Of a stretch of 36,908 bases of DNA, positions 20,840-36,779 are shown piece by piece. Positions within the stretch are counted from its first letter, which is position 1. Each line of letters starts with the position of its first letter. The notes beneath the pieces were generated by a model. It saw nothing but the letters and a program-made list of their open reading frames with translations. It searched no databases and was not told the DNA's origin. Position numbers and translations under genes: made by a program. The DNA is from Myxococcales bacterium (lineage in GTDB: Bacteria; Myxococcota_A; Polyangia; Polyangiales; Polyangiaceae), in NCBI GenBank assembly GCA_003153495.1, contig PLYU01000289.1, forward strand, positions 1 to 36,908. The letters are read 5' to 3'.

Positions 20840-21008
20840 GCCCGCGCTCCCGTCGCCGCCAGTTGCGCTCGATCAACCAGAGCACTCGCGGTTCGTGTTC
20901 GCTCCGAACGCGTCCCAGAACCTTGCGAGACCGAGCGACGCCAAGGAGGGATGAGGAGCCCTACTCACGTCTCGTCATTCGTCACACCGTCACGGCCCCG
21001 AGGCGCAC

Positions 21009-21120
21009 GCGCCCGGAGGGTGAGCCTCTCCTCGGGGGCTCGGACGGCGCGTGCTGTCCGGACCGTCCGGTCGGGGCGCTACGAGCTCGCCCCCTTCGGA
21101 GAGGCTCACCCTCCGGGCGC
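21009..21120 (+). repeat. 112-bp palindromic module, copy A
   Basis: The module starts with GCGCCCGGAGGGTGAGCC (continuing TCTCC) and ends with the exact reverse complement of those 23 bases, so its own ends form a 23-bp perfect stem around a 66-base loop. It looks like a small non-coding inverted-repeat element. Copy B is the same module turned round. Confidence 0.85.
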
Positions 21121-21198
21121 TCGGACTTCGCAAGGGAGCGATGGCCCGTCGCCTGCAGCCGAGCTCCGACGACGGGGAGCTGCCTCCTCCTCGGGGGG

Positions 21199-21493
21199 AA
21201 GGGCATCCTCACCGCGAGGAGGCGCTCGCCCGCCAAGGGCAAGGGCCGGACCTTCGCGGGGCGACGGCCGCCCCCCGGCGGGCAAGGGCTTGCTCGTGGT
21301 GAGGGAGGGCTTCCTCGCGAGGGGCAAGGGCTCGCCCGTCGCGGGGCGACGCCTCGTCACGAGGGGCAAGGGCCTCCCCCTCGCCGGACGGCACCTCCTC
21401 GCGATGAGGAAGGGCTTGCCCATCACGAGCAAGGGCCTTCCCGGCGCGATGAAGGGCCCATCCTCGCGCAATGACGCGTTCTCCCGGTGAGAG
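21199..21493 (+). repeat. Array of 42-bp tandem repeats (2 x 21)
   Basis: The anchor AAGGGC occurs at 21199, 21241, 21284, 21326, 21368, 21410 and 21452: steps of 42, 43, 42, 42, 42 and 42. Secondary anchors at 21305 (GAGGGC) and 21431 lie 21 bases after the main ones, so the unit seems to be a doubled 21-mer. In one frame the units read as 14-residue peptides (GKGSPVAGRRLVTR, GKGLPLAGRHLLAM). The 43-base step breaks that frame, which argues against one continuous protein. Confidence 0.8.
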
Positions 21494-21540
21494 TCCCGTC
21501 CGCGCGCTGCGGGACCGCGCACCGGGTCCTGCGGACCCGA

Positions 21541-21652
21541 GCGCCCGGAGGGTGAGCCTCTCCGAAGGGGGCGAGCTCGTAGCGCCCCGACTGGACGGTC
21601 CCGACAGCACGCGCCGTCCGAGCCCCCGAGGAGAGGCTCACCCTCCGGGCGC
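21541..21652 (-). repeat. 112-bp palindromic module, copy B (inverted)
   Basis: This is the reverse complement of copy A, with differences only near positions 21591 and 21601. The same 23-base ends face each other. With copy A it can pair to form a very large stem that would enclose the 42-bp array. Confidence 0.85.
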
Positions 21653-21786
21653 GTGCGCTTCGCGGCCGCGACGAGATGGGACGAGTGACGAGACTCACGT
21701 ACGGCGACGATCCCCGACGCCGGCAGCGCGATGGGATCGCAAGGTTCTGGGATGCGTTCTATTCTGGTCACACCACGAGACAACCG

Positions 21787-36695: not shown

Positions 36696-36779
36696 GGTCC
36701 CGGTCGAGGTCGAGGTCGAGGTCGAGGTCGAGGTCGAGGTCGAGGTCCAGGTCCAGGTCGAGGTCCAGGTCGAGGTCCC
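36696..36779 (+). repeat. Hexanucleotide tandem repeat (GGTCGA)n
   Basis: Fourteen 6-base units run without a gap from 36696 to 36779. Most are GGTCGA, with GGTCCA variants towards the end and GGTCCC as first and last units. On the plus strand the array reads as Arg-Ser repeats in one frame, but there is no ribosome site or further protein-like sequence. It sits 29 bases before the next likely start codon. Slippage could change its length. Confidence 0.9.

Follow-up and report, generated by a model that had tools for sequence, protein, structure and literature searches.

The gap between the FAAL operon (AMP-binding, epimerase, carrier protein) and a lipoprotein gene in a Myxococcales bacterium of the Polyangiaceae is filled by a 722-bp composite element, which is very probably a non-autonomous, MITE/BOX-like DNA transposable element that makes an 8-bp target duplication and is moved by a transposase acting in trans. 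Two inverted 121-bp palindromic modules, each with an outer arm bearing a terminal inverted repeat, enclose a non-coding 42-bp array, and the transposase would act on the terminal repeats to insert the whole unit. The mobility of the composite is well supported, and so far it appears species-specific, recently mobile and young. All positions refer to the window, the whole stretch of 36,908 nucleotides that was analyzed (contig PLYU01000289.1 of assembly GCA_003153495.1), in which the following features were delimited:

20906-20970, forward strand: left half of the host hairpin repeat R2, terminal inverted repeat GAACGCGTCCCAG; matches the uninterrupted R2 copies on contigs C203 and C33
20963-20970, forward strand: target-site duplication, left copy ACTCACGT; same as 21693-21700, single in the C203 empty site
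20971-21692, forward strand: composite element, 722 bp, with 8-bp direct repeats at its borders; second copy at C148:14773-15496 (95%)
20971-21002, forward strand: outer arm A, terminal inverted repeat CTCGTCATTCGTCAC, from the terminal-repeat search and arm comparison
21003-21123, forward strand: module A, 121 bp, a long hairpin with perfect 23-bp ends; covariance model match of 134 bits, fold z -7.7
21124-21195, forward strand: A-side linker, common to C148 and C5
21196-21460, forward strand: 42-bp tandem array with a 21-bp half period and AAGGGC anchors, from TRF and the anchors; equal length in C148 and C5
21461-21537, forward strand: B-side linker with short palindromes in its sequence (GGGTCCTGCGGACCC), common to C148 and C5
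21538-21658, reverse strand: module B, 121 bp, inverted copy of module A, from sequence match and covariance model
21659-21692, reverse strand: outer arm B, terminal inverted repeat CTCGTCACTCGTCCC, from the terminal-repeat search and arm comparison
21693-21700, forward strand: target-site duplication, right copy ACTCACGT, an exact match to the left copy
21693-21760, forward strand: right half of R2, ending in GATGCGTTC; matches the uninterrupted R2 copies on C203 and C33

The limits of the composite are set by the exact 8-bp direct repeats ACTCACGT found on both sides of it, just outside near-perfect terminal inverted repeats (CTCGTCAYTCGTC); the element starts with CTCGTCATTCGTCAC and terminates in the complement of CTCGTCACTCGTCCC. 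The sequence-only reading had rightly placed an element here, but its limits (20969-21694) overshot by 2 bp at either end. Reading the duplication as 4 bp (TCAC, the ends then being GT...AC) suits the window composite almost equally, the longest exact repeat being 8 bp. The flanks proved to be the two halves of a palindromic repeat of 126 nt, R2 (arms 20906-20928 and 21737-21759), a feature absent from the earlier reading, and uninterrupted copies of R2 lacking the insert were found at C203 and C33, where they constitute paralogous empty sites within the same genome. C203 reads CCATACTCACGTACCG, versus CCCTACTCACGT-[722 bp]-ACTCACGTACGG in the window, and a single ACTCACGT joins both flanks in C203. 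The ACTCACGT repeats are a target-site duplication, as shown by the paralogous empty site. The mobility that had been suggested for this locus is also borne out by nine full modules in the genome and by the second whole composite.

The place of insertion is itself structured. With its flanks joined, R2 folds end to end, and its apical loop TCAC is centred in the duplicated AC-TCAC-GT. The composite at C148 sits inside a different hairpin repeat, R4, of which an unfilled copy exists at C293, and its target AGCTCTGG overlaps the R4 apical loop GCTC, 1 bp off-centre. In both composite insertions, which are two independent placements, the host hairpin repeat has therefore been entered at its tip or no more than 1 bp away, and we infer from these two insertions a preference for the tips of extruded hairpins (cruciforms). 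The six target 8-mers adjoining a terminal repeat (window, C162, C234, C128, C148 and C71) conform to A-N4-Y-G-K, all six agreeing in the A of position 1, the Y of position 6 and the G of position 7, C148 and C71 being perhaps not independent of each other. Concerning the host repeats, R2 and the abundant R3 (seen at 20906-20970 and 21693-21760 in the window, on C203, C33 and C376, and elsewhere) are both palindromic and have interior sequence in common; the hairpins at their apices differ, as though this part had been replaced time and again. A query made of R2, R4 and R3 matched 13 of 60 sampled genomes of the family (12 of 48 genera) with varied apex sequences; the host repeats are therefore older and more widespread than the composite.

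Inside these limits, the two modules are reverse complements, as had been read from the letters at about 98%: 110 of 112 positions are identical between 21009-21120 (A) and 21541-21652 (B), and each module has perfect 23-bp inverted ends. The inverted match reaches 137 nt at 96%, and beyond the module the outer arms of 38-40 bp have diverged from each other, in agreement with the outward decay of homology described earlier. The likeness of A and B had been attributed to recent copying, gene conversion or selection. We ascribe it mainly to a young repeat family, because module A of the window is 100% identical to its counterpart in C148; arm-to-arm conversion can nevertheless be seen, at C148. 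There the composite, inserted between unrelated flanks, has two outer arms of B type, mirror-identical over the whole arm, the module start and 16 bp of flank. A direct repeat of 8 bp is missing from its flanks, where the 8 bp on the right instead repeat those on the left in reverse complement. A single event of hairpin-templated synthesis, overwriting one arm with a copy of the other and continuing beyond the end of the element, would account for both the mirror arms and the inverted right 8 bp, and template switching between the arms of inverted repeats has been described (PMC8604942, PMC8794818). The same cause may be shared by the paired arm changes within the module, namely C24-G101 to A-U in three copies and C11-G114 to G-C in one.

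Between the linkers, AAGGGC anchors start at 21199, 21241, 21284, 21326, 21368, 21410 and 21452, which gives the spacings previously listed (42, 43, 42, 42, 42, 42), with additional copies at 21235 and 21431. The autocorrelation at lag 42 is 0.61, versus a 99.9% shuffle maximum of 0.43, and the value of 0.49 at lag 21 agrees with the half-period that had been proposed; TRF reports period 42 over 21237-21421 with 70% matches. The array is present in the window, in C148 and in C5 (95%), and partly in C312 at a contig end, and its repeat number is constant in the first three. The C5 copy has a cut-down module A and lacks module B exactly at its boundary. A coding array was considered and rejected: copies differ by single-base indels, so the array is not coding, and it presents no codon pattern and has open frames on both strands. 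The element has terminal inverted repeats at both ends, a target duplication that is single in the empty site, no coding capacity, with frame-breaking indels, and multiple copies (composites C319 and C148, arrays C5 and C312).

Copy counts rest on searches of an assembly of 382 contigs that is 78% complete. In this genome, a covariance model detected nine full copies of the 121-bp module along with several fragments; 107 other family genomes, two of which belong to the same genus, gave no match. A 21-base core of the module had no exact match in 84,980 species genomes, weak matches (E 1e-4) in 108 genomes were short scattered pieces only, and a plasmid origin was discarded, as plasmid records gave no match to the element. 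Most named relatives of a neighbouring gene come from Myxococcales bins, which fits the phylum guessed in the sequence-only reading. Near the end of the window lies a hexamer tandem repeat, GGTCGA (36702-36777, 12.7 copies, 94% matches by TRF). Solo modules are without a right-hand terminal repeat and without clear duplications. At C5, C68 and C130, modules look, by eye, as if they had been lost or cut down. The flanks on contigs C68 (L162) and C298 (L054) are paralogous and differ in the presence of the module, and the C68 junction GTGCACGCG-TTCGG looks like a hairpin-deletion scar.

Very stable folds (z -6.3 to -9.0) and a conserved module loop were observed, and in 8 of 10 dispersed copies the left side of the module lies no more than about 60 nt from the end of a gene; at C234 (L057, 7745-8791), the miaA (IPP transferase) frame even enters the module and ends on the module's own TGA. 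These properties could suit a structured RNA or a 3'-UTR/terminator element, the hairpin acting at transcript ends and the composite being a non-coding RNA gene. The orientation toward gene ends (clear in 8 of 10) was left out as a test, since some loci are possibly convergent. We consider this explanation unlikely: Rfam gave only sub-threshold, miRNA-like noise and no family, the covariation term is nearly nil (-0.06) with paired changes in just 2 of 45 pairs, template switching also predicts the pairing of arms, MITEs and REPs typically lie beyond stop codons, and the module is absent from the relatives searched.

A transposase bearing the terminal repeats of the composite (CTCGTCA) was not found in the assembled 78% of the genome, where terminal-repeat searches returned only the known element loci plus matches at chance level. 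Genes of ISL3 and IS66, families known for 8-bp duplications, and of DDE_Tnp_1 exist in the genome and were rejected, having no matching terminal repeats. The exception, an IS1182-like transposase remnant (L167, G000:C108, 1273-2374), has the terminal repeats GGTGTCTTTCGKCCGA, with CTAG flanking it on both sides. The end of the remnant agrees at 15 of 15 positions with the outer arms of C5 and C51, whereas the window composite's arm shows a weaker resemblance, one that 28 of 2000 shuffles also reach. We regard this sequence match of the C5 and C51 arms as a lead only; both the R3 repeats and these outer arms probably derive from the remnant. The parent of the composite would be an insertion sequence with ends CTCRTCANTCGTC and 8-bp duplications.

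The inverted doublet of short conserved ends, its extragenic position at gene 3' ends and the solo modules without clear duplication also recall REPINs, whose movement depends on a RAYT (REP-associated tyrosine transposase). Such an origin is very improbable, considering that no Y1_Tnp (PF01797) was detected in the assembled 78% of the genome with positive controls, that the 23-bp module ends contain neither a GTAG/CGTC tag nor the closed short palindrome (20-40 bp) of a REP beside it, and that the composite is bounded by terminal repeats and duplicates 8 bp of its target. An assembly artefact of a metagenome-like bin, in which inverted repeats were wrongly joined, might be imagined from the 382 contigs, several of which end in or near repeats (C312, C5), but it is scarcely credible, given that the two composites differ in their flanks, that each has an empty-site paralogue of its own, and that misassembly would not create an exact target duplication.

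The proposed composite MITE/BOX-like transposable element belongs to a kind that is known (MITE/BOX/REP), and the earlier statement that no known element type came to mind was too strong; what is new is the composite build and the nesting on symmetry axes. BOX elements of Streptococcus pneumoniae, boxA-(boxB)n-boxC (PMC3049150), are likewise modular and intergenic, with a central array between end modules, terminal repeats, target duplications and mutual insertion. They come from another organism and have distinct ends and a variable array, whereas here a single palindrome, also found alone, supplies both end modules in opposite orientations, and the array is of equal length in three copies. 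MITEs, which are non-autonomous elements (PMC10969869), share the short terminal inverted repeats, the target duplication, the lack of coding capacity, the intergenic location and the multiple copies, but the present element is a 722-bp composite with two nested palindromic modules. ISPsy8, IS1397 and ISPpu9/10 target REP hairpins, and the composite is similar in its insertion on the axis of a palindrome, as reported for ISPsy8 at the REP symmetry axis (PMC1525189); they are autonomous, and ISPsy8 makes a 3-bp duplication, unlike the non-coding element described here with its 8-bp duplication and two host repeats. Finally, REPINs and BIMEs (PMC3116915, PMC3733652) are palindromic, extragenic doublets predominantly downstream of genes, from which the composite differs by its terminal repeats and target duplication, by the failure to find a RAYT and by 23-bp ends that are not tagged REPs.

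In the sequence of events that we favour, the transposase would insert the unit preferentially at extruded hairpin tips, and the arms would be homogenised by template switching within the hairpin, the product being visible at C148. The composite is most likely selfish, and if it affects the divergent promoters of the FAAL operon and the lipoprotein gene, this would be incidental. A broader and more tentative possibility, which we hold to be rather less than even, is that transposition recognising hairpin tips stacks palindromes axis on axis and that template switching then copies arms and flanks, lengthening the palindromes. If so, the genome would hold, as frozen stages, the layers R2 or R4, then the composite, then the module. 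As a case of nested palindromic mobile DNA, the locus is unusually easy to read, a single genome containing empty sites, filled ones, what are probably scars of deletion, and an arm copied as a mirror image. It turns two questions into testable ones: whether extruded hairpins are the chosen targets of some transposases, and what share of the paired changes in bacterial hairpin repeats is due to template switching as opposed to RNA selection.
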